64,000 nucleotides of DNA from Chlorella sorokiniana (Eukaryota; Chlorophyta; Trebouxiophyceae; Chlorellales; Chlorellaceae): the NCBI GenBank assembly GCA_025917655.1, contig CP084608.1, positions 372,001-436,000 of the forward strand. Direction: 5' to 3'. Of this stretch, positions 21,828 through 47,000 are shown piece after piece. Every line of letters begins with the position of its first letter. The first letter of the stretch is position 1. The notes under the pieces were generated by a model. The model was not told where the DNA came from, searched no databases, and saw only the letters and a program-made list of their open reading frames with translations. The position numbers were made by a program, and so were the translations under genes.

Positions 21828-22909
21828 GCCGCTGCGCACTTCGCTCTCCACAGAAACAAACAAAAGCTTGATGCAGTCAACAGTGTGGCGTTGCAGGCCC
21901 CCGAGCTCCGCTGCCTGTCCCGCTCAGCATGCACTTACTCCGTGATGCTTTTTGGGTGTATCATTAGCCAATGACAGCAAGCAACCTTCCGCTGTCTTCA
22001 TTTTGCATGACCACCCTGCTTTCATTCGCCTTTTCAGGTGTGAGGTTGTATCCGTCACGCTCACCCCCTGACACCTTGCATTCCCGCTGCTGCTGCATCT
22101 TTTTCCCGCACTGGCACGCACAACGGCATTCAAGTATGCACCCTTTGTAAATTAGCTGCAACCTCCAGCCTCACACAACGTTTCTGCGTTGGCATGAGCT
22201 GTATTACAGTGGTTGCAGGTTCGCAGGGACAGTTGATCAGAGGCAGGCTGGCCTGGCAAGTTTGGGATGTGGGTCATTGCAGTGGTACGAAAAGCCCAGG
22301 GCTTGCAGAGAGCGCAGTAGTGGAGCAGGCAAAACATTGGCAGGCAGATGCAACAAGGAGGGGCCCCTCACAGAGGAGGAGGGCTGAGAACAGGGCGGGC
22401 ATGGGGGCGCAGCAAGGGCAGAGGCTGGTCATGGCAAGTGTGGAACATGAGAGGATGGAGAATCAAATCTGCCTGGAACTGTGCGGCAGGATGCACATTG
22501 ATTGGTAGGTCATCGATTATGAGGGGACTTGGTTGACGGTCGACGTCGAAAGGTTGGGTGGGCTGGGACACCCAGCCGCACCGCGCACGAGGGCATGTGG
22601 GCTCGCGAGTTGCGCCATATATTGTTGCCTGCAGGCGGCAGTATTGACTTGCATTAGCGTCAAAGAATGCATGGCAAGCAGTGTTGGGGGAACCAACGGA
22701 CCAGCAGCAAGCCAACCAGCCAGCCGCCAGCAGCGGCGCCGACCGCCAGCAACCGTGCTGCCCGCAGCCGCAAGGGCTCATAGCCACCATTTTCTTTGTG
22801 TGATCGCCGACGATACATCTTGCAATTGCGCTGCGGCCCAACAGGGCTGCAGTTCCACAGAATTGCGCACCCAGAATCGCAAGCCAGCCTGTCCCAAGGC
22901 CTCACCTGT
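21828..22909. other. CENH3 3' region; no gene seen
   Basis: These bases hold the CENH3 3' untranslated region and further sequence without a convincing open frame on either strand. The TGTAA at 22146 is the best candidate for the CENH3 poly(A) signal. Confidence 0.4.
22146..22150 (+). terminator. Putative TGTAA poly(A) signal of CENH3
   Basis: TGTAA lies 318 bases after the CENH3 stop codon on the sense strand. It could be chance. Confidence 0.35.
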
Positions 22910-23037
22910 TCACTGCTCGGTCTCCTGCTGGTCGTTAGTCGCCATGTTGTAGACAACCTCAGCGACAGCCACAAAGACAGCGGCGGCGGCGGCGTACATG
23001 TTGAAGCTTGCGGCGGCGGGCGTGGAGGGCGTAATAG
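22910..23037 (-). CDS. Possible last exon of a small membrane protein, unrecognised
   Basis: A minus-strand frame reads TPSTPAAASFNMYAAAAAVF and continues through VAVAEVVYNMATNDQQETEQ to a TGA at 22912-22910. It would be a single hydrophobic helix followed by a short acidic, Gln-rich tail, the shape of a small tail-anchored or organelle membrane subunit. No upstream exon was found with certainty; a possible acceptor CCAG lies near 23060. It could instead be non-coding sequence downstream of FANCM. Confidence 0.25.
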
Positions 23038-23412
23038 GGAGCTTTAAACGGCTTTCTGGCACTCGCACAAATTAATTGGGCCCAGTCACAGGCTTCTGCG
23101 GCTAAAGAGGAGCCCGATGCAGCTGCCAGCTGGGCCCTGCCAGCCAGATGGCCGATGATTCTGACGTCAGAAAAAGAAACGGGGCCACCTCCACTGGAAG
23201 GCGTGGTATGGGGATGCTAAGAAACAAGCAACAAGCAGACCCTGCCCAGCAGCTGGCCGCCGCTGCATGCTCGCCGCCGCTACGGTACGGGAGACCGACA
23301 GTCCATGACAACATCGCTATTGTGCTGTTGTTCGCAAGTGAGGTGATTCAGTTGATTGTTCGGGTGCAAGGGAAGCAATGATAGCAGTCTGCTGTGCCAG
23401 GCGTTCGCTCCA

Positions 23413-26400
23413 TCACCAGCCGCCGCTCCCGTCGTCCTGCCAGCTGCCGCCGGAGCGCCCAGGCGTGGCATCCTGCTGGGGGCGCTGCTCCCGTCGCTGC
23501 CGCACTCCCTGCTGCTGGGGGCGCTGCTGGGCCTGCCCTCTACCTGCGGCGGTCTTGGCCGTCGAGCGCTGGAGCTGCTGGCGCGAGCCGCGCTGGTTCC
23601 GCCTGCCCGCGGGAGTCAGCCCGTCGGCGCACACAGGGCAGAACCACTCGCCTGCAGACGGACCAAGGGCATTAATTCGCTGATTAATTCGCTGCTGCAG
23701 GAACAAGAAAAACCTCCCAGGAACTCTTGTGGTGAGGGCCTGCCGCTGCGTGCCCTGCGGCACAGCGCACCCGACGGAACGCCTGCCAGGCCGCAGCAGC
23801 GCGGGTGGTACACCGAGGGGCAGCCGTCGCAGCACAGCAGCTCGCCTGCGGCAACAGGCAGGGGGCAGCACCCTCAGGACGAGCAGGGCTCAATATGAGC
23901 ATACATGAAGAGACGCAAGGGGAGCCTGAAGGTCGCCTCTAGAAGCAAAGCAGAGGGCCTGGCGGAAGCGGCGTCCCACCCTGGTCGCTGCCGCAGGCGG
24001 CGCAGCAGTCCTCATGTGACAAGGCCTCGCTGCCCAGCTCCGAGCCTGCAGCAATAACAGCAGGCAGCTGCGATCACAGGTCTGGAAGCAGCGCAGCAAC
24101 ATCCGGGGGCCACTGCGCGGTGCAAATGCTAGCGGTGGGAAGTGCTGGCGGCACAGCGACGGCGGCAGGACAGGGGCAAAGCAAGGGCGCCGTTCCCTCG
24201 GCGGCCAGACGGTACCATCAACGAGGAAAGAATCTTCCAGGTCGTACTCATCGTGCTGGTCGGGGTGCCCAGGAAGCTGTGAGGAAGGTGCAAGCCCCAG
24301 CTGGCCGCCGCCGTACGCCCCTGGCGGAGTGTCCTGCACTGCGGCATCCGCCGCCCGCCGCCGCTGCAGCATGCCGCGGAAGGCGGCCAGCGGGGAGGGC
24401 GAGGCACCCGCCAGGCCGGGCGGCGGCAGCCGGAAAGCCCTGCGGGGGAAGCGGGCCCAACCAAAGGTGAAGGTGAGCGGCAGCCAGTCACAGGAAAACT
24501 AAGAGCCCGGCATGCTTTTATGGCAATCCCGCCGCTGTCGCGGCAATGGGCCCCGCTGCACCCGCCTGCCATCGGCGCTCTGCGGCAGCTGGGTGCCATC
24601 GTCGATGAAATCACTCAAGGCACCATCCTCTCCCCCTCGCCCTCGTCCCCTGCACCAAGCGGCAGGTCAGGCGGCAGCGCACGCACAGCTCAGACTTTCC
24701 ACAGCTGCGCAGGGCACAAGGATGCACGAGAATGCCTAGGATGGAGCAACAGCGTCGTGCATTTTACCTGAGCCATCTTCGCCAGACAGCGCGGCCTCAC
24801 AGTCCACAAACCGAGCAGCACGCCGCCGGGCCTCCTCCCTGAGCTGCAGCCGCTCCTGCGCCGCTTCCAGCTGCTGCCGCCGACCCTGCGCCTGCTGGCC
24901 CTGCGCCTGCAGAGGCTGGGCCCCCGCTTGCCACGCCGCGGCAGCCTGCGGGCCGCCAGCTGCGCTGCCGGGCGGCTGCCGCCCTTCTGGAGGCGGCGGA
25001 GATTGGCGCCAGCGGCAGCCCCTTGCGCGCGTGCAGGCGGCAGGCTTGCAGGGGAGTCTGCACAGGACATCGCATCGATTGAGTCAGCTGGTGGCCGCAA
25101 AGTGTGAATCGATCAGAATCCCCCTGCGACGGGCATGGGAAGCTTCAGCAGCTTAGATATGCACAAAAACCACCAGCCTCACCAGTGCCTTGAGTGCTGC
25201 AAGTCACAGTGCGGCTTGGCCTGCACGCTTCGACCGCCGGCCGCCAGTCGGGAGTCTGGCTGCTGAGCACAGCCCTGCGCCGGCCGGCCGCCGCTGCCGC
25301 AGCTGGCTGCCAGTCGGGACTTGCCTCGCTGTCGGCGGGCGTCGTCGCCGGCACCGGCGGGCCGCCTGAGGGCGGGCCGCCGCCCGGAGCTGCCCCCTGC
25401 CGGCCCGCTGGCCGCCACTCGGGGTCTGGCTGTCAGCGACCACAAAGGCGGCCCGGCGGCGGGGCAAGGCCGCCCCCACAGGCTGGTCCCCGGCAGGGAC
25501 CCCCACAGCTCAACTGTGGGGTGTCGCTGCCCCGGGCGCCTGCTGCGGCCTGGGGGCGCAGGCCACAGGGAAACTGAAGCCGCCCCCGCTGAAGCGCGGC
25601 TGCTGCTGCGGCTGCTGCTGCTGAGGTGCCGGCCGAGCCGGCCCGCTGGGCCGCGGCAAGCTGGGCTGATGCACCTGCTGGATGCTGCCCGTGCCATCAC
25701 CCTGCCAGGAGGCTTCCGAGCTGCAGCGCTGGGCTAATGTGGCAGGTGCTGCGAGGGCGGCAGCATCCTGCCGATCGCCAGGCGCGTCCTGCAGTTGCTG
25801 CACCTGCGCACAGCCGCGCTGCTGTGGCCGCCTGTGGACCTCGCTGCCGGGCGTGGCTGCTGTGGCCGCAGTCTGCGCTTGCGGCTGGCTGGCCTTCAGC
25901 TGCTTCCGGCGAAGCGAGAGGGGGATGTCTTCCTCCTCAAAGGCGGCGGCGCCAGGCTGCTTGGGGCCCCAACCCCCTCTCTGCTGCTGCGGCGGACAGT
26001 GGGGCGCCGCAGGAGGCGCAGGCCCCGCCAGATGCCCGGGCTCGCCGACTTGCAAGGCCGCTGGTCGCTGCACCGACCAGCTTCTGCGCTGCTCTGGAGG
26101 GGACATACTGGCTGGCTGTAGGTCCCGCTGCTGCTGCTGCTGCTGCTTCTGCCGCTTGGCCCGGCAAGCCAATGGCTCGTCCTCCTCTGCTTGCTGCGGT
26201 CGGCCCCAGCCAGGTCCTGCAGCTGCTGGGGGCAGCTCGAGCCTGCGGCGGGCGGGGCAGAACCTCCTCCTCTTCCTCCTCCTGCCGCTGCCGCCGCCGC
26301 CGCCGCTCCGCGCTCGACTGCTGCTGCAGGGGCCGGTGAGCTGGCTGCCACGGCTGCTGCTGGCTACGCTGCTGGGAATTGGGCGGGGCTGCCTCCTGCT

Positions 26401-29400
26401 GCGGCGCTGGAAGGGTGGCCGCTGTGGCTGCAGGTGGCGCCAGCGCCGGCTGCCGCCGCTGCGCGAGGCGCTCGGCCAGCGGAAGCTGGGAAAGCGACGC
26501 TGGCTCTGCGGCACCAGCCCCCGCGTTCTCCTTGCCTCCAACGCCTCCCCGCTGGAGGGAGCAGGGGCTGAGCTGGCTGCTGGGCAGGATGTCCCAAGTT
26601 GGCAGCGGGCTGTCGTCAGCCTCAGCCTCCAGGTAGGATGGCAGGCGGGCCGGGCTGCAATCCCCATCCTCCTCAAGCCGCTGCTGCGGCTCCTGCGCCT
26701 GCTGCTGCTGCTGCCGCTCGTACAGCTGTGCTTGCGCGGCCTGCAACAGTTGCTGCTGCTGCGGCTGCTGCGTCTCCTGAGCCTGCTGCTTCTGCTGCTG
26801 TTGCTGCTGCTGCGTCGGCTTCTGCTTCAGCTGCTGCGCGAGCTGCTGCCGCTTGAGCTGCCCTAGAGGGACCTGCGAGAGGGCTACTGCAGCTGCAGGG
26901 TGCTGCGTGGCTCGCCGCGGCGGCTGCGCCTCCACAGCTGTCGGCAGTGCAGCCTGCAGCCGCTGCACCAACGGCGGGGCGGGGCTGAGGGAGGGGGAAG
27001 GCACCCCCTCCTGTCACCACTTTGGCAGCAGGCTGCCGCTGCGGCTGTGGAGGTGCCGCCTGCCACCCAGGTTCGGGGTTTGCCGGCGCTTCAGCCTCGC
27101 CAACGGTACCTGCGACAAGCTCTCGAGGCCGTCCGCCTCGCCAGCTGGCTCGCCCAGCTGCTGCTGCACCTGCTGCAATCGCTGCGGGCGGAGCCCAGCC
27201 GGGGCTGGCAGCGGCTGCTGCCCCAGCGGCGGCGATGGCTGCTGCTGCCGCTGCTGCTGCTGCTGTTGAGCTGGGGCCGGGTCATCTTCATCTGAATCCC
27301 CTACAAGGTCGATGATCTCGTCTAAGTCGTACCCAGCTGCCGCCGCAACCGCCGCAATGTCCTGGCCGGCCCGGCCCGCCGCAACTGGCGCCGCTGCAGC
27401 TGTTTCTTCCACACCAGCCATCGGCAGCGGAGGGATGGCCAGCTTGGCTGCGCTCCCGGCACCTGAGGAATGGCCTGCGCAGGCAGCGCTGCTTGTAGGT
27501 GCGGCGCTGCGGGTGCTGGAGGGCCCTGCGCAGAAGGGCCGGCTGCTTCTTTGCTGCAGCCGCCTTTGTGCTCTGCAGAACCAAGGGCCAGCGGTGCGTG
27601 AGCCAATGGCAGGACAGTTACTAGCAGGCAGAAACATGGCTACCGCACCTTGCGCTTCACGGCTCTCTCGCCGGGGGTGCTGCGACCCCGGTGTCCGCGG
27701 CTGCACCCGCTGCAGCCTGCTTGCGCTTGCGCGGCTTGCTTGCCTTGCCCGACTTCTTGGCTGCCGCGCCTGAACAGGCTCAGCCGCGTCTGCTGCCCCG
27801 CGACCAGCACCATTGCCAGCTGCCGCCCCCTGGCATGCTGCTGCTGCTGCTGCTGCTCGGCTGACGGCTCAGGCGGCGCCGCCTCGGCGCCCGCCGCTGC
27901 GAGGAAGGCCCAGCGATGTGCCGCAGGGCTGTCGAAGCGTATCAGGAGCTCACGGCCCGGCTCTTGTTGCTGCTGCTGCTGCTGGTGGTGAGCATCTGGT
28001 TTGCTGCTGCCACATGGAGGCTGCCGAGCTTCCTGCCAGCGGACCAGCAATCCGTCAGCAGCAAGCTGCGGCACGATCGTGGGCTGCTGTCGGGTGGAAG
28101 GGGTCGGCGGTGGCACACCGTCTGCCTCCGCACCAGCCGGGGCAGCTGCCACCGCCGTCAGCAAGGCTTCCAGCGGCGGCGGCGGCGCGATGCGCAGCTG
28201 GCCGGCCGCGCTCCAGCTGATCGCGGCACCCGACAGTTCGGGAAACAGCAGGCAGTGCTGCACGGGCTCCGGTTGCAGCTGAGGCTGGGGCCGCAGCTCG
28301 TCCTGACCGCCGCTCGGCATCGGTGAAGGGGGCTGGGGGGCGCTGGCGACGCCGGGGCCTCCTCGGCGGGCAGAGGCGGGAGGGGGCCCCAAAACTCCTC
28401 TTCTTTATCCCATGCTGAGGGCGGCATGGCTGCCGGCGGCGCCTCATCGGCCGGATTTGGAAACACCGTGGCTGATGGCGCAGCAGCTGCATCTCCTGGC
28501 CCGATGGCGCCAGCTGGCGCCAGCCCAGCGTTTCCGTCGTCATCGAGCAACTCAGCGACCTCTTCACCATGCTCAGCCCGGCCGCTGCCGCCATCTGCTC
28601 CCCAAGCATGGCCGCCGCGCGCGCCAGCCGCCGCCGCTTTCCCGCCCCTGTCTGTTGCTCCGCACCGGCACCGGCAGGAGGAGGATCCGCAGCGGCATCC
28701 ATGAGAGCCTCAAACTCGGCCGCAGCTTCCGCCACCGGCTGGAAGCGCCACTCGTCAGAGCTGCCGCGCTGGGCTGGCCTGCTGCTGGTGCAATCACCCG
28801 GGCCTGCTGGGCTTCTTCCCTGCTCTTCCTCCTCCTCGCTGCCCTGGCCCCCTTCAGAGTCGCTGTCAATGACGGCCAGGGCGCCGCCGCTGCCCCGCCG
28901 TGAGACTCGCCCCGGCCGGCCCGGCCGCCCGGCCGCGGCCGCTGCGGCCGCTGCCCCGCGCCTTGCCGCGGCCGCGGCCCCGCCCTGAGGGCTTGTCCTC
29001 CGGCTCTGCCTGCACTCCAGAATAGTAAAAAGGCCTTCACAGCTTAAGCGTATCTCTCACCTGGCTGGCTGCCCTCGGCATCGCAGACTCCAGATCACAG
29101 CATGCTGGCCACCGCAGACGGAGCTCACAACCTGGAGGAAGACAGGCAGGCACCCCTACCTTCTCGGGTGTGTGCTCCACCGCAACATCGATGCGGGTGG
29201 GCTCGTACGCGTGCGGCAGCATGCGCGGCGAGCGGCGGCACATCTCGAAGCCAGCGCAGTTGCGCAGCTTGCGCTGCAGCGCCTTGGTGGTCTGCGGGTA
29301 GGGAGGAGGGCAGTGCTGGGGTGAAACGCACGGTGGCGGCGGCGAGACAGCCCAGCCCACGCGACAAGCACGCATGCGCTGTGGCAGCAGGCGGCAGGCG

Positions 29401-32400
29401 GGCTTGCTGTCAGGGCTGGCAGAGGCTGCCTCTTGCACACCCCAGCTTGCCTACAGGGGCCGCAGCCCAGCCACCGCACCCTCAGCATGCCCAGCGCACC
29501 CACACCATGCGCACCGTCAGCGCCCCAGCATACCCCAGCGCCCCCAACGCACCTCCTCGATCTGGCGGTACTTCTCTTCTTCACGCCCCGCAGCCAGGAT
29601 GTACACCACCCGCCCCTCCTTGTGCCGCCCCGTGCGCCCCATGCGCTGCACGGAGCGCGTGGGGGAGGCGGTGGCGTCGAAGCACACGATGAGGTCCACC
29701 TGCGGTAGCACAGCAGGGGCGGCAGCACATCCGGGTGAAGGCAATGAGCAGGGAAAGGAAAGAGCCAGGGAAGGAGGAGTGCAGGAGTTGCAGCAGGGAG
29801 CAGGTAACAGAACAGGACTCAGCCGTCTCAAACGAGCAGCGAGGCCTTGATCTGGCCCTGCAGGCAAGCGTTGCCAGTGGTGACAGTAAAAAACGCAGGC
29901 AGTAAAAAAAACAGCTTCAGCGTGCCTCTGGGATGTCCAGCCCCTCCTCGCCGATGCACGTGGCCACCAGGCAGTTAAACTGACCCGCCCTGCAGAGTGC
30001 GTGTGCAGGAAGCAGTGAAGGGGGCGTCTGGCAGCGAACGCGCAAGTTACAACCCCAACAAACCTCCGACCAGCGCGTGCATAGCCGGCGGCGGACGCAG
30101 CCACACTTATACACGCCCGCCACCCGCTCCTCCTGGTTCCGTGCCGCCCGTCACAAGCGCCCAGGCGCTGTCCCACCTGAACCCGTTGAGCACGGCCTTC
30201 TGCTCTGCCTGCTTCATCCCCGGGCCCTGCTTGCTGCTGCCGCCGCCGCCTTGGCCGATGAAGGGGCGCGCGGTGATCAGGGGCTCGTGCTCCGCCAACG
30301 CGTCACAGATGCAGGTCACGCCTTCGCGGAAGTTGGTGAACACGATGACCCGCCCAAAGGCGCCCTCCTCCGTCGCCAGCGACTGCGAGCGACGGGCGGG
30401 CAGAGCGGTGCGCAGCTGAATGGCGAGCAGAAGGGTGCATGGATCGCTGGGCTGTGCGCTGAAGCCAGCCGCTGCAGCCTTTTGCACGCAGGCCACGAGC
30501 GGGTTGATGGTTGTCTACGAGGGAAGGCGGCCGCTACAGCATGCAGCAGCGGTCCTGGCCGACTAGCGGCGCAGGCCTCGGCTGCGGCGGCAGCGCAGCT
30601 TCGCTCCTTGGGAAAGACATCCACAGCAACAAGGGCAAAGAGCAGGGCAGGCGCCTGACCTGGAAGTGCTGTTGCAGGATTTGCACCAGGGCCTGCATTT
30701 TGGGGCTGGCGCCGCCGCAGCGCACCAACGCCTCCAGTGTCTGCTTGAACTGCGGCAGCAGGGTGCCACACGAGCAGGCAGCATAGGCACAGGCGGTTGG
30801 CTGGGCGTCGTCTGCATGCTCTGCGGCCCACATGTACAGCGGTGGCCGGGGACCCTGCCAGTAGTGCTGTATTGCACTGGCACAGGCCTGCTGGCAAGCC
30901 AGCAGAGTACGAGCGCTCACGTGGCTGAACATGCTGTTCCTCTTCAAGGTTGCCATGTACCCATCATCCATCTTGCTGTGAAGGTAGGCCAGAGCCTGCA
31001 GCACGAGAAACACACGCAGCAGGCACACGTAGCAACGAGTGCTGGGCCGGCGCTGGCACGCAGCAGGCGGGCAGGGATGCTCCAGCCTCGGCGGCGCAGC
31101 CCAATGCCAGCGGTGGCTGGCCCCAGCCCGTGCGTGCATGCCGTGCGGCAGCTGCCCGGCAGCTGCCCCGTGGTCCTGCCTGAGCGAGGCCGTACTGATC
31201 CATGGTGTCCCGCGTCTGAACAAGCACCATGGCCTGGGTGAAAGGGTTGTAGTGGCCCGAGTTCCTGCCCTTGATCGCCAGCCGCGCGTTCAGCAGCGCA
31301 AAGTGCGAGACCGACTCGGGGTTGGGGTTGCCGTGGTACGCCTGCAGAGGCAGGGGCGTGCTGCCGGGCATGAGCAGCGGCTGCTTCGACAGCAGCAGGC
31401 GTAGAGGCGCATAATTAGGTTTCATTGGCGCCCAAGCAACAAGGGGTCAGTATGCGTGTGTGAAGAAGGGGGCTGGGTCGCCAGCATGCCCCACTGCAAG
31501 GCACAGCAGGCGGGCGGCCACCTTTTGGTGCACCAGGGCGCCAGCGCTTGGCGGATCAGGGTGAGCAGCAGCCCGCGCAGCTGGTCCCCCTCCCGGCTGG
31601 GGTGCACCACGTGCACTGCAGGGGGTCCAGGGTCCAGGCAGCAGACCAATCGGCATCATGCGTGCAAGAAAGCACAAATTGGCTGGCGCCAGCTGACAGG
31701 GTGCCCAAGCACGCCGCATGCACCGCTGCTGCGCAGGTCCGGTACCGCCCTTGCCTCACCCTGGACATCCTTTTCGTGGGTGTACTGCGCCACATCGCGG
31801 TCCTGCTCAGTGCGAAACTCGATGCGCGATATCATCAGGTTCCTGATGACTTCCTACAGTACCAAACACCCAGGATCAACCGGCCTGCAGAACACCCTCA
31901 ACCAACAAACACTCTGCACAGGAATTGTGTGCTGCAGCTGTTTCAAAGCCGTAGCAGCACAGGGAATGCTTGCCACCCCCGCTGCGGCCTCGCCTGCACT
32001 TTGGCGCCGTCGGAGCCGGGCGTCGCGCTGAGCCCTAGCACGCGGAACTTGCAGCCGGCGCTGCGCATGGTTTCGACCGCCTGCACAATCTCCTGGTTGC
32101 CTGCCACACAACACGGATCGTGAGGACGGGAGCACAGCAGGCGGGCATCAGCCAGAGCAGACGCAAAAGGCTTTGCGCGTTGTGACGCTGGCTGCGCCGC
32201 CACTCGAGCCAGCCAGCGCTTTCTTCCTCACCCGTGGCTCTGTGGCATTCGTCCACCACCAGGCACACCACCTTCTGGTAAGGACAGATGCCTGCAGCGG
32301 AGCGGGCAAGGTGCTTTTTGTAGATAAAAAAACAGGCAGGCACGGTTGGCCGCCAAGCAGCAGACCTCAGCCTAATGAAAGGAGAGAGGCCCGAATGCGC

Positions 32401-33891
32401 AGGGCGCCCAGCAGCTGCCATCCCGTCGAGCTGCGTGCGCACCGCTCTTGACGTCGCGGCTGAAGGTTTGGGGCGTGCAGAAGAAGCAGCGCTTGATGCC
32501 CGCCTGCCACAGGCTCTTGCGAAGCTCGGACTTGGTGCTGCCTGGAGGCAGGAACAGAGGTGGGGTGGCTTCTGGCAACCCAGCCCGAAGCACAGAGGCA
32601 GGCCAGCGGAAAATGCCAGCCAGCACTGGCTGCAATCGAGCCGGAGCGGCACAATGTCTGACGCCAGGATGGGCTGCGATGCTTCATATCGCCCCAGCCG
32701 GCCCAGCCGGCCCCACCCAACGCCCTGCCGCCGCACCAGTCAGCTCGCAGAACCCGGTACGGCTCATGCCCATGAACGAGTGGCACGCATCCACCTGCTG
32801 CGCCACCAGCGGCCGGGTGGGCGCCACAAACACGAGGATGCCCTGCGAGCAAAAGAGGCAGGCGGCAGGTGTGGACCCAATCCAGGGACGGGTAGCGGCG
32901 GGGCAGCCAGGCCCGCGCAGCAGACATGGCGTGGTGGCACACCGAGATCTCGCGACACTGGCATGGGGACGAAAGTCACACACAACTGAGCCCATGCATC
33001 GCTCTTCTAGGCTCCCTCGCTCACTAAATGAACACCAGACACACGCACACAGACCCATAACAGACAAGCATCAAAACAAACACCGCCTACACCCCCACCC
33101 CCACCCCCTCACCCCACCTCCGGGAACCAACATAACCTTAACATACACACAAGGAGTAACAAAACACCGCCCACACAGAACCCCCCCACCCTCTAGCCCC
33201 ACCTCTGGGAACCAACGCGCAAAGTTGTGCATGACGACGGCGGCGATGAGCGTCTTGCCGAGCCCGGTGGGCAGGCACACCAGCGTGTTGGACAGCAGGG
33301 CCGTCTGCAGCATGGGTGGGGCGGGACACGATGATGGGCTGCTAGGAGCGGGCGAGGTCAAGGCGGAGGGTAGGGCCTGGTGGCACTCGCAGGTGCAGCG
33401 GGACCGCCACCTGGATGCACGAGATCTGGTACTGGCGCTTGGTCACTCCTTTGGGAAACACCCAGTGGCGGGCACAAATCCTGCAGGGGGCGCAACAGCA
33501 GGCTGACGCGTCACCGCAAGCGGGCACTTGAAGCGGCGGCGGCTGCAGCAAAAGGAGCCAGCCGCTCACAGCCGGCGGATGCGCGTCCGCCAGCCACAGC
33601 GCCACCGCAGGCATGATGCACAGGGGCAGAGCTGCCAGATGCAGCAAATCACGGGAGGCAGCGGCGCAGCTGCCGGCAGCTGCCCCAGCACCCGGCTTGC
33701 CTGTGCAGGCGGATGCCGCCGCTCGTGGTGTTCACCTCCACCAGTTCCCCCTCACCGCCCTCCGCAGCCTCGCCCGCCGGATCAAGGCCGTCCGCGGCGC
33801 CGCTGCCGCCTGCAGCACAGCCGCTGGCTCCCGCGGGAGTCGAGGCGCCGTGCGATAGGCCAGGCGGCATGCCAAAGGCTGGCTGCCACGG

Positions 33892-33923
<32 letters not shown>

Positions 33924-35579
33924 CACCGCTGGCTGGATGCCACGGCTGCCAGGGCTCCTGCCGCGGTGCTGCCCTGCCAGCTGGGGCAAATCCTGGGAAG
34001 TCGGTAGCACCAGGGGCGGTGGCCGACTGTGCGTGCTGGCGCTCTCCAGGTTGCTGTGGCTGCTGCTGAGCGCAGGGTGCATGGCCGCTTGTGGCAGCTG
34101 ACAGGGATGGTGTGGGCCCACCTGGGTGGTAAAAATCAGAGTCAAGCCCGCTTGGCTCCTGCTGCGCCTGCTCTGGCGGTTGCACCTGCTGCGGGCCCTG
34201 ACGCAGGAAGCGGGCCGCTTCAGCAGTCGTGCTGAAACCCGGCTGCTGCTGCTGCTGCTGCTGCTGCCTGTGCTGCTGCGCCACCTGGTTCAGCGTGAGC
34301 TGCTGCATCATTGGCGGCGGCTGCTGCAGCTTGTGGGCACGCTCAATGGGGTGGCCTCCAGCTGGCAAGGGATGCAGCGGTGCCCAAGGCTGCGAGTGCT
34401 GCTGCGCCTCCTGCTGCCGATAGCTTGAGGGCCGTTGGGCGGTGCGGCGCCGCCGCCGGGGCCTGGCCCTGCGCCGCCTGCCTTGCTGCTCCAGAGGCTG
34501 TACAGGCTGGCCTGTACTTTCTTCTGTGATGGGGCTGCGGCCACCGCTGCATTGTTCTGCTGGCGCCACTCCTCCTGCTGCTGCTGCGGCGGCAGCTGCG
34601 CCTGCTGTGGCCGCGCTGCCGGGAGCGGCTGCGGCGGCGGGACATAAGCGGTGGTGCCACCAGAAGCACGCTGCAGCCCCCGACATCCTGCTGGCGCCAC
34701 TCATGCTGCGGCGGCAGGTATGGCTGCTGCGGCCGAGCTGCCAAGGGTGCCTGTTGCAGAGGGGCATGAGCGGCAGAGCCACCAGGAGCTCGCGCCGCCA
34801 CCTTGGCATCCTGCTGCCGCCACGGCTGCTGCTGTTGCTGATGCAGTGCCTGCTGCGGGAACGGCTGTAGAGGCGGGCCTGGAGCGGGGCCGCCACCAAA
34901 ACCACGCTGCGGCCTGCACACAACCCCGGCGCCGCCAGCTGCCGGATTCAAGTTCTGCTGCCAGCTGGGCGCTGAAACGTCGCTGGGCCTGGACCCGCTG
35001 GGTGGGTATGCCGTGGGCTGTTGCTGCTTTGCCCGAAGCTGAGGCGGCTGCTGTTGCTGCTGGTAGGGCTGAAAGGGCCGTTGGGCTGGTGCAGCATGCG
35101 CAGGCTGCAAGGTTCGAGAGTGAGCTGGAGCGGGCGGCGGCGCTTGGTTGACTGGCGGGGCCATGCCCACGCCGTTGGTGGAAGATCCATTCGGATTGGC
35201 TCCTCCGTGTGCAGAGCGGCTGTGCCACACAGGAGGGTGCTGCGGCCGAGCAGCAGCAAGCCCTGGCCCGTGCTGCGGCGGCAGGTGCTGCCAGGCAGGC
35301 GGCACCGCCTGCCCTGACGCCCGCGAGGGCGCCTGTCCGGTGGCATGCTGCTGATGGCTCCCTGTAGCGATTACACGCACGCCCTGCCCCGCCACAGGCT
35401 GCGGCTGCTGCTGGCGCTGCGCCAGAGCCGCAGCCTCCAGCGCCTCCAAGGCCGCCAGGTCCTGCATCAATCAATATTATTAGTAGTAGCGTTGTACGAA
35501 AATCAAAGATCAGAACGCCTTCTTTTCCCGCCGTGCCGCGGCCGAGCCCCTCAAAACGCACCCAGTCGTCATCTTCCAT
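23413..35579 (-). CDS. FANCM: FANCM/MPH1-type fork-remodelling helicase with a C-terminal PHD finger
   Basis: FANCM translocates on branched DNA, remodels stalled forks and limits crossovers. Early exons are 35579-35562 (MEDDDW), 35461-33701 (about 590 Gln/Pro-rich residues), 33480-33411 and 33304-33203. Core motifs in order: [20 protein letters not shown] (Walker A), [22 protein letters not shown] (motif II), [35 protein letters not shown] and [12 protein letters not shown]. After Gln-rich, acidic linkers come [27 protein letters not shown] and [13 protein letters not shown], matching conserved segments of animal FANCM. The last four exons (24439-24216, 24045-23980, 23845-23771, 23651-23413) keep phase and add a C4HC3 PHD finger ([26 protein letters not shown]). 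No ERCC4 nuclease domain is visible. The linkers need several single-base corrections. The intron after 33701 has a GC donor. Confidence 0.9.
33895..33923. repeat. CTG/CAG run coding poly-Gln in FANCM
   Basis: Nearly ten CTG triplets read as CAG (Gln) on the FANCM sense strand. Similar but shorter or interrupted runs occur in the same gene near 26120, 26790, 27250, 27840 and 34240. Confidence 0.85.
34555..34830 (-). repeat. Three-copy internal protein repeat in the FANCM N-terminal region
   Basis: The block (P/E)WRQQ(D/N) recurs near 34830, 34710 and 34575, about 125-130 bases apart. Between copies the protein repeats GGxxAxxP, then LAARPQQ or its variant PAARPQQ, then LPPQ. The unit is about 42 residues. 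It lies in the disordered Gln/Pro-rich region before the helicase core. Reading it in one frame needs a base restored in the C run at 34677-34681. Confidence 0.6.
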
Positions 35580-44028: not shown

Positions 44029-47000
44029 CTAGCCGAGCCCGCCGCATTTTGCCATGGCCCTGTTGGGGTCCTCCGCCCAGTCCGCCTTGCTGCGTTGGCA
44101 GGGGCGCCAGAGGCACAGATAGTACAGGTCAAACGTGTTGGCGGCAAGTTGGCCTGCCATTTCAACCCACGCTGGCGGGCACAGCATTGGGAGCATGTCC
44201 AAGGGCGTGCATAGACATCGGCTGCTGCTCTTCTGTCTGCGCCTGCTGCCCCCACTGCCACACCGCACCCCTTACTGCACAAGTAATCGTACGGTACTGC
44301 ATCTTACCTTATCCAGTACTCGTCTTGGTCCCGCATGATGTCGGCCAGCACCGCGGCGCCCAAGAACACGGCATGGCGCCGCCGCGGCGGGTCCTCGATC
44401 CGCAGCTTCAGGCGGCGAAGGCCCTCGCGCTCTCCCTTCAGCACCCTGCAAGCAGACAAGAAAGTGAAACGCTTTACCCCAAGTGCTGCACGCGCCATGG
44501 AAACACGCCCAGGGTGTTTGTGTCCTGTTTACTGAGTGTGCGAATAAAAGGTGGAGGGTGGGGGCCAGCGGGACGAAAGACAGCAATGCGTGCCTGTCAA
44601 GGTACAGCTGCTGCAGCTCCCGCTCCGTCCTGCTCGCCAGCCCAGGGTACATCGTACTGCCGCCGCTGCAGGATGGGGGGTAGGGAAGGAAGAAGACATG
44701 TGTGCCACAATGCAGCTCACATGGCGGCCGGCCGGGCGTGGCAGCAAGGCCCGCTGTACGGCAGGCGCAGCGTGCGCCGCGGCAGCTGCCGCCCCCTGGG
44801 CCCCAGCTGTTCGTGGGTTCGTGCGGGAGCTCACCTGAGCACAATGTTGGCGTAGAGGCGCAGCCGGTTGTCGATGTCGCTGTCCTGCGGGCAGGGCACG
44901 GCGCAGCAGGCCGGTCAGCTTCCTTGGCGACTTCCTTGGCAATGTAGGCAGGCAGGCTGCAGGCCGCTGCCGGGCCAGCTGCGGCGAGGCGGGGGCGCCA
45001 CCAGCTCGGTGCCAGCCAGAGGCAGCGGCGGTGGCGAGGGTGCAGGGAGGCAGAGAGGCACAGGCGGCCGCAGGAGGCATCCGCCGGAAGCAGCAGCAGG
45101 CAGAGGGGCAGGTCGGCAGCGCGCCTGGATAACGTTGTGCACCATCTCCGGCAGGCCGGGCGCCTCAAGACCCAGAAGGCTGCGCAGCGGGGATTGGGAA
45201 CAGCATGAGCGGCATTGTGGGGAACAGGCCCCTTGAGGCCGCCGCTGGCAAGCCACTTGTGCAAACCCGAGGCAGCTGCGCAAGCAATGTTCAGGCCTGT
45301 GATGACACAATCAGGGGTGCAAAGGGTCAACAGCATGACTGGCAAACCAGGGGTGCACCTGGGGTTGATGAGGGCCTCGGGCGCCATGAAGCGCTCGGCG
45401 CCCACCCGTATCGTCCGCCCGTCTGGCAGCGTGTACGTCTCGTTCACACAAGTCGTCTCCCGAGCCAGCTGCGCCCAAGTCACAGGAGCGAGGGCGGGGG
45501 AAGGGCGGCGGTCGCGGGCCGGGAGCGCCGATAAGCAGCGCTGCCTGCCATAGGCTTTGGTGCGCAGCCGCTGGACAGGGCAGGAGCCGGCAAGAGGGAA
45601 AGCTGCCCTGCCCTGCAAAGCCGCTCCCGTGCTCTCAAAGTCTCCCCTGTGCAAGCAAGCCTCGATGGCTCTCAATAACCTCCACCATGCGGCCCCCACC
45701 TTGGCCTCCTGCTGGTAGTCAAAGGCGCAGTAGCACAGCCGCTCCTTGATCTGGCGCACGGTGTCGAAGTCGGCAGACCTGCGGGCGCCCTCGCATGCTG
45801 TCAGCCAGCAGCTCAAAGAGGGCAAGCGCTCGCCAACAGGGCGGGGCGGCAGTCGGTCACTGCAGCCTGGCCATGCAGCTCCAAGGCACACTCCTGAGAC
45901 GGAGCAAGCCCTTCCAACAACACGTGCGCCCTGCGCCGCTGCGCCCGCACGTGCGCATGCGCCGCCGGGCTGCCCTCCCGCCCCTTCCCCCAAAAACCCA
46001 AAAGAGCACCCGGGCCGCCCACTTGTTGAAGGAGTAGCCGCGCCTTGTCAGCAGGTCCGCCAGGTAGGCGGTGAGGTGGCGCCCCGCCAGGTTGAGACGC
46101 CGGGTGAGGTGCGGCGAGCTGAAGCCCTCCACCACTGGCACCTGCCCACATCACCCCAGAGGGCACAAGGGGGTGCACAACCAGAGAAGCGTTCAGGCGG
46201 GAGCCAGACAGCAGCACCATGGCGCAGCGAAGGCTGCCGTCGGGTCCAAAGGCCCCCAGTGGAGCAGACGCCCGCTCAGGGAGGAGCAGCAGCAAAGGGG
46301 GCACTCCCACGGCGCCCGCCCGCCCCGCCCGCCCACCACATGGGTCACGCCGTCGCCGCTGTCCACCACCAGGCCTGTGAGGGCGCCCTGGGAGTAAAGC
46401 GTGAGCACAGCCTGGACCTACGCAGCGGGACGGGCGAGGGGCGCATGTCCGGGTCGACCCACGGCCAGCAGGGCGGGCAAACAGCCAGCAGCGCTGCCAG
46501 CCAAGCGATGCATCCACCACGCGCCCGCCAGGCTGGGAGCTGACCGGCAGCTGCGGATGTCTGGCAAGCAGGATAAAACGCGGCCAGTTGCAGCGTCCCA
46601 CGTACGCCAACCCACAGAAATGCGCAGCCCCCTGCATTCCTGGCCCTCGCGTGTCGCGCACACACTTACCAGAGACAACCGCCCGCTGCCGCGCCGCCGA
46701 CGCCGTCGTCCCTCTCCCCCCACACCCCCACACCCACACCCACACATTCCACACACATTTTGCTTGCCAACCCTGACGCGCCTCACACAAACCTGCACCG
46801 CCCACCTGCACAAAGGCCGCCTGGAAGCCGTACCCCTCAAACATGGCCTCCAGCATGCGCCGCCGGTTCTGCCGCGGGTTCATGGGCGGCTCGGTCAGCA
46901 TGATGCGGCAGCCGGCGGCCGGATCCACGCGCAGGACGTCGAAGAAGGCGTGGTCCCACACAGACTTCATGTCGCCCCAGCTCTCCACGATGCCGTTGCT

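Follow-up and report, generated by a model that had tools for sequence, protein, structure and literature searches.

The question raised by this locus of Chlorella sorokiniana is whether its FANCM helicase ends in a PHD finger and, if so, which state of histone H3 such a finger would recognize. We addressed it in a window of 64,000 nucleotides (66% GC), to which the coordinates below refer. The helicase exons were assembled by homology and splice sites, with some piece ends cut by hand, into a product of 564 residues. In the PDB its best match was human FANCM (9el5, E 5.3e-110), followed by Hef (1wp9, 5.1e-61) and then by an entry at 8.1e-25, which upholds the FANCM identity put forward in the original prediction; a PHD finger follows the tail of this helicase in phase. 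A 93-residue piece also matched the NCBIfam Hef model (E 2.6e-10), at a level well under the whole-protein cut-off of that model. When part of the helicase was compared with the 38.8-Mb genome, six matches were obtained, all of them at the FANCM locus; thus, as far as this partial search reaches, FANCM appears to be single-copy. The MHF-binding region that follows the helicase (PF16783) had 0 matches in this genome and likewise 0 in 14 control genomes.

The gene lies on the minus strand. Splice sites and PDB matches support helicase exons at 33411-33479 (its 5' end being the first matching codon), 33203-33304 (motif I, PTGLGKT), 32737-32842 (motif Ia, APTRPLV), 32443-32541, 32232-32291 (motif II, DECH), 31994-32100 (motif III, SATPGSD) and 31760-31853. 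The gene was continued through a piece at 31545-31615, from the splice assembly, whose 3' end was cut by hand without a splice site, and, between the helicase halves, through two pieces outside the region aligned with the human protein, one at 31180-31416 with both ends set by hand and the other at 30921-30995, from the splice assembly. The second half, again supported by splice sites and PDB matches, comprises an exon at 30660-30749, HELICc exons at 30177-30415, 29925-29989 (3' end approximate) and 29553-29699 (motif VI, QRMGRTGR, also placed by the human alignment), and the exon after motif VI at 29160-29291 (RRSPRMLP). Motif II (32291-32232) reads DECH here and DEAH in human FANCM in the PDB alignment, and the intron that starts at 31993, behind the motif III exon, is of the GC-AG type, with the donor GCGAGG. 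In the Gln-rich N-terminal part (34947-33700), inspection by eye revealed frame changes near 34670 and 34430 with no obvious intron; these are possibly assembly indels or short introns.

The four exons originally proposed for the end of the gene, 24439-24216, 24045-23980, 23845-23771 and 23651-23413 on the minus strand, are all present, with an AG before each, a GT after the first three and a TGA closing the last. The exact phase fit claimed for them was found at 3 of 3 junctions, all of phase 1; by chance alone, a match at the one decisive junction would be a 1-in-3 event. The spliced frame is open to the TGA and holds a single intact C4HC3 PHD finger, which the Pfam PHD model recognizes along its entire length (positions 1-47 of 47) with 28.4 bits (E 1.6e-6; cut-off 24 bits), as expected from the full finger that had been predicted. 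The first PHD exon (23980-24045) carries the first zinc knuckle and the Asp predicted to contact K4, and is supported by splice sites, Pfam and the alignment with AIRE; splice sites and Pfam likewise support the second (23771-23845) and the third (23413-23651), the latter with GEWFCPVC, a Gln/Arg-rich end and the stop codon. A phmmer search of the PDB with the finger returned CHD4 as the best match (E 2.4e-13), then NSD3 and PHF12, and AIRE, BHC80 (PHF21A) and TRIM proteins were among the best 60 of 68 matches. A loose Cys-His pattern matched three unspliced places in the window, and for this reason we take the profile scores, and not the pattern by itself, as evidence for the finger.

A splice-site model built from 12 introns of the FANCM gene placed the four acceptors within the top 1.3, 0.8, 0.2 and 2.4% of the AGs of the strand, and rated the three donors as ordinary, since 26, 15.7 and 6.4% of GTs score equally high. 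Below the donor at 24215 there are 20 AGs at a distance of 50-420 bases, and the one used by the finger is in the top 0.8% of the strand. At third codon positions the GC fraction reaches 0.906 in the finger, compared with 0.873 in the helicase exons. The internal PHD exons have lengths that are multiples of three and phase 1 on both sides, so that skipping either of them preserves the frame. Across the 38.8-Mb genome we found 22 PHD matches; the best one other than the finger itself, on contig 1, is 51% identical over approximately 45 residues, which suggests that the finger of FANCM is probably not a recent copy of another PHD in the genome.

Which histone state might this finger read? The original prediction proposed that a histone mark may direct the helicase to chromatin, PHD fingers being known to read methylation of histone tails; a methylation mark is not supported here. 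In the alignment with AIRE, NEDECAVC pairs with HEDCCAAC of the finger (Asp297 being numbered by spacing), and the Asp that precedes the first zinc Cys is therefore present. Excerpts of PMC3214078 describe this conserved Asp as key for unmodified H3K4 (D297 in AIRE, acting with N295, and D489 in BHC80, acting with E488) and a conserved Trp as the mark of H3K4me3-reading PHD fingers, and an excerpt of PMC3471955 names BHC80, AIRE, CHD4 and TRIM24 as H3K4me0 readers. The sole Trp of the finger is the one in GEWFC, and between its knuckles it has one residue more than AIRE. The Trp-cage position, which we take to be two residues before the His, is occupied by Val. With an Asp aligned to that of AIRE and a Val where the Trp would stand, the finger is predicted to read unmethylated H3, that is, the opposite of what had been worded originally. 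It could be argued that, even in a real fusion, the target of the finger is H3K4me3, a different histone site or a partner protein, or that its role is unrelated to histones, given that excerpts of PMC10124903 and PMC9640981 describe, respectively, PHD fingers that bind elsewhere and PHD superdomains of plant VEL proteins without H3 binding; however, the best PDB matches and the HED-x-C motif point toward the H3K4me0 class, making such other targets improbable. Provided that the fusion is real, a finger that reads H3K4me0 is the likely outcome.

The link between finger and helicase runs through the tail, for which a relative proved informative. Scans for FANCM relatives found none among viral contigs and two loci among genome contigs. 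One of these, L020, was dropped, as the match sits in a bacterial helicase ORF of 1433 residues that we judged not to be FANCM. The other, L019 (6601-10570), is a eukaryote-like FANCM gene; its contig of 38 kb is assigned to a Verrucomicrobiaceae MAG of pond origin, probably as protist contamination of that bin. Its helicase is 43% identical to that of Chlorella in the best segment, and the helicase is followed by tail motifs in the order FVDVEAEW...FIVADATQ, joined at a guessed splice. No PHD-like pattern was present in the six frames of L019; its end looks ERCC4-like by eye, and the Pfam and PDB searches gave no such match.

In Chlorella the motifs FVDCEAAL and DFIDDGTQ lie upstream of exon 24439 in the same frame. 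The FVDxEA and FI..TQ elements are thus common to both genes, L019 being the sole relative compared and its motifs being joined at a guessed splice, and their shared order lends some independent support to the identification of the region as a FANCM tail. The tail exons are placed at 24768-24900, with a 5' end that is not fixed and with the motif order of L019 as support, and at 24566-24641, which is backed by L019 and by one of four gene-finder settings; the acceptor of the latter is uncertain (a weak AG at 24641, or 24649 paired with donor 24787) and its donor may be the GC at 24565. The third, 24216-24439 (AFRLPPP...), is supported by splice sites and the site model; its GC content by codon position is atypical (0.838, 0.554 and 0.757 for positions 1, 2 and 3). 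The tail end DEYDLEDSF had no alignment in L019, and we take it to resemble the acidic tail of human FANCM.

Reaching exon 24439 from upstream is the least regular step of the model. An in-frame TAG (24499-24501) stands between the DFIDD and AFRLPPP parts and must be either spliced out or a sequence error. The exon start requires a phase-2 donor, and only three phase-2 GT donors were listed, with phases assigned by hand: 24811 and 24787 bypass DFIDD, and 24499 recreates the stop. DFIDD is kept by a GC donor at 24565 (GCGGGT), for which the GC-AG intron after 31994 is a precedent in the same gene, or by donor 24561 with a weak acceptor at 24498 (score -0.1). The junction preceding DFIDD is irregular too, and small sequence errors in the tail region are possible.

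Gene prediction did not recover the complete structure. A first dynamic-programming gene finder, trained on the Gln-rich parts, lost the DEYDLEDSF tail end and most of the finger in 3 of 3 settings. A second one, run with neutral amino-acid frequencies in four settings, used the donor right after the tail (24215) every time and without a frameshift. In three of these settings it took donor 24787 and skipped the DFIDD exon and the first PHD exon; in the remaining one it retained DFIDD by using the GC donor (24565) but broke the finger. All four exons were obtained exactly in 0 of its 4 settings, and the whole finger in 0 of the 7 settings overall. The skipping of PHD exons may reflect regulated isoforms or merely a weak gene finder. 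We count it as a weakness that our exon model is based on manual splicing and homology rather than on a gene finder.

These runs bear on the possibility that FANCM ends without the finger, either by retention of the intron at 24215 or at an earlier point, the PHD exons being a relic or part of a minor isoform. As the donor at 24215 is ordinary and read-through leaves the frame open until a stop at 23890, an isoform lacking the finger is possible; moreover, among the routes found to remove the TAG, all are either irregular or leave out a motif of the tail. A relic, however, would be expected to decay, whereas this finger is intact over the full Pfam model, has no stop and keeps the high third-position GC given above; we therefore hold a FANCM that generally lacks the finger to be unlikely.

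The reading frame itself argues that the finger belongs to a longer gene. The frame of the first PHD exon has no ATG back to the stop at 24076, and there is no Met in any of the three PHD exons, so the finger does not form an independent ORF beginning with ATG and needs an upstream coding exon, unless another codon serves as the start; the next upstream exon in phase is the one carrying the FANCM tail. On the minus strand no TGTAA signal occurs from 22209 to 26000, and hence tail and finger are not separated by such a signal; neither does one closely follow the FANCM stop, the nearest being at 22208. It is accordingly very unlikely that the finger, alone or with the tail, forms a distinct gene following FANCM, even though the helicase-tail junctions are not firmly placed within the Gln-rich middle and an ATG lies within the tail exon (FRGMLQRRR), because the PHD frame lacks a start, no TGTAA intervenes and L019 also has the two tail motifs behind its helicase in the same order. 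We regard a PHD finger fused to the C-terminus of FANCM as probably real.

Two further features of the window were recorded. An ORF of 29 codons, MYAAAAAVFVAVAEVVYNMATNDQQETEQ (22999-22910, minus strand), noted by eye, lies some 410 bases past the FANCM stop in the same orientation and resembles a small membrane protein. A minus-strand ORF at 44275-46047 gave a weak and partial actin-family match in Pfam (E 2.3e-7) and may represent a single exon of an actin-related gene; for the other 9 of the 10 window ORFs searched, Pfam returned no match.

A FANCM fused to a PHD finger is probably a new domain architecture. Among the matches listed, titles and abstract openings on FANCM with PHD, in plants or in green algae, contained no description of it, and a word search of the available portions of three FANCM papers (PMC10085685, PMC5876677 and PMC8604939) found no mention of a PHD domain. 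The protein would carry its SF2 helicase on the N-terminal side, then a long linker rich in Gln and an acidic tail, with the PHD finger as its last folded unit. The finger would bind the unmodified N-terminus of H3 (A1, R2 and K4me0), in the manner of AIRE, BHC80 and CHD4, and would thereby hold a fork-remodelling helicase on nucleosomes devoid of H3K4 methylation, in chromatin that is new or lies outside promoters, close to stalled forks or D-loops. From the sequence we infer that the exons share one transcript, that H3K4me0 is preferred and that the finger has a recruiting role; taken as a whole, this model of a FANCM held by its terminal finger on H3K4-unmethylated nucleosomes is somewhat favored. 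That in a branch of green algae FANCM ends in an H3K4me0-reading PHD finger, tying the sites of fork and D-loop remodelling to missing H3K4 methylation, is a tentative and rather doubtful extension.

Under that extension, FANCM would be kept off promoters and off break sites marked by H3K4me3 and be placed on newly deposited chromatin. A built-in histone reader would directly connect chromatin state with fork repair or crossover control. According to an excerpt of PMC10085685, recruitment of FANCM to DNA damage is promoted by MHF1-MHF2, and excerpts of PMC8604939 and PMC9110296 report that the Chlamydomonas FANCM functions in the repair of crosslinks.

The contrast with animals drawn originally, in which an ERCC4-like nuclease occupies the place of the finger, stands in part. 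A frame-wise search of the genome, from which an intron-split divergent copy could escape, gave two ERCC4 matches, located on contigs 12 and 5, and none on contig 7. The contrast is nonetheless weaker than stated, since plant FANCM reportedly also lacks the nuclease part. Compared with human FANCM (9el5), the helicase is 49% identical over the aligned pieces and the likeness continues through the exon after motif VI; the human protein presumably also has acidic tail motifs like those of the Chlorella gene. Its C-terminus is an ERCC4-(HhH)2 fold, as stated in an excerpt of PMC5876677, whereas here it is a PHD finger. In the alignments, AIRE PHD1 and CHD4 PHD2 share with this finger the C4HC3 arrangement and the GEL-CCD-C core, the PHD of BHC80 being known from its match and from the excerpts of PMC3214078, and AIRE shares the Asp before the first Cys. 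Those fingers belong to proteins of transcription or remodelling, unlike the present one, which sits in a FANCM-family fork helicase. ATRX is a Snf2 ATPase and not a member of Hef/FANCM, and its ADD domain is N-terminal, whereas the PHD finger of Chlorella FANCM is C-terminal. As described in an excerpt of PMC13372662, ATRX remodels chromatin and protects against replication stress, and its ADD domain binds both H3K4me0 and H3K9me3; ATRX provides a precedent for a replication-stress ATPase equipped with an H3K4me0-binding domain.
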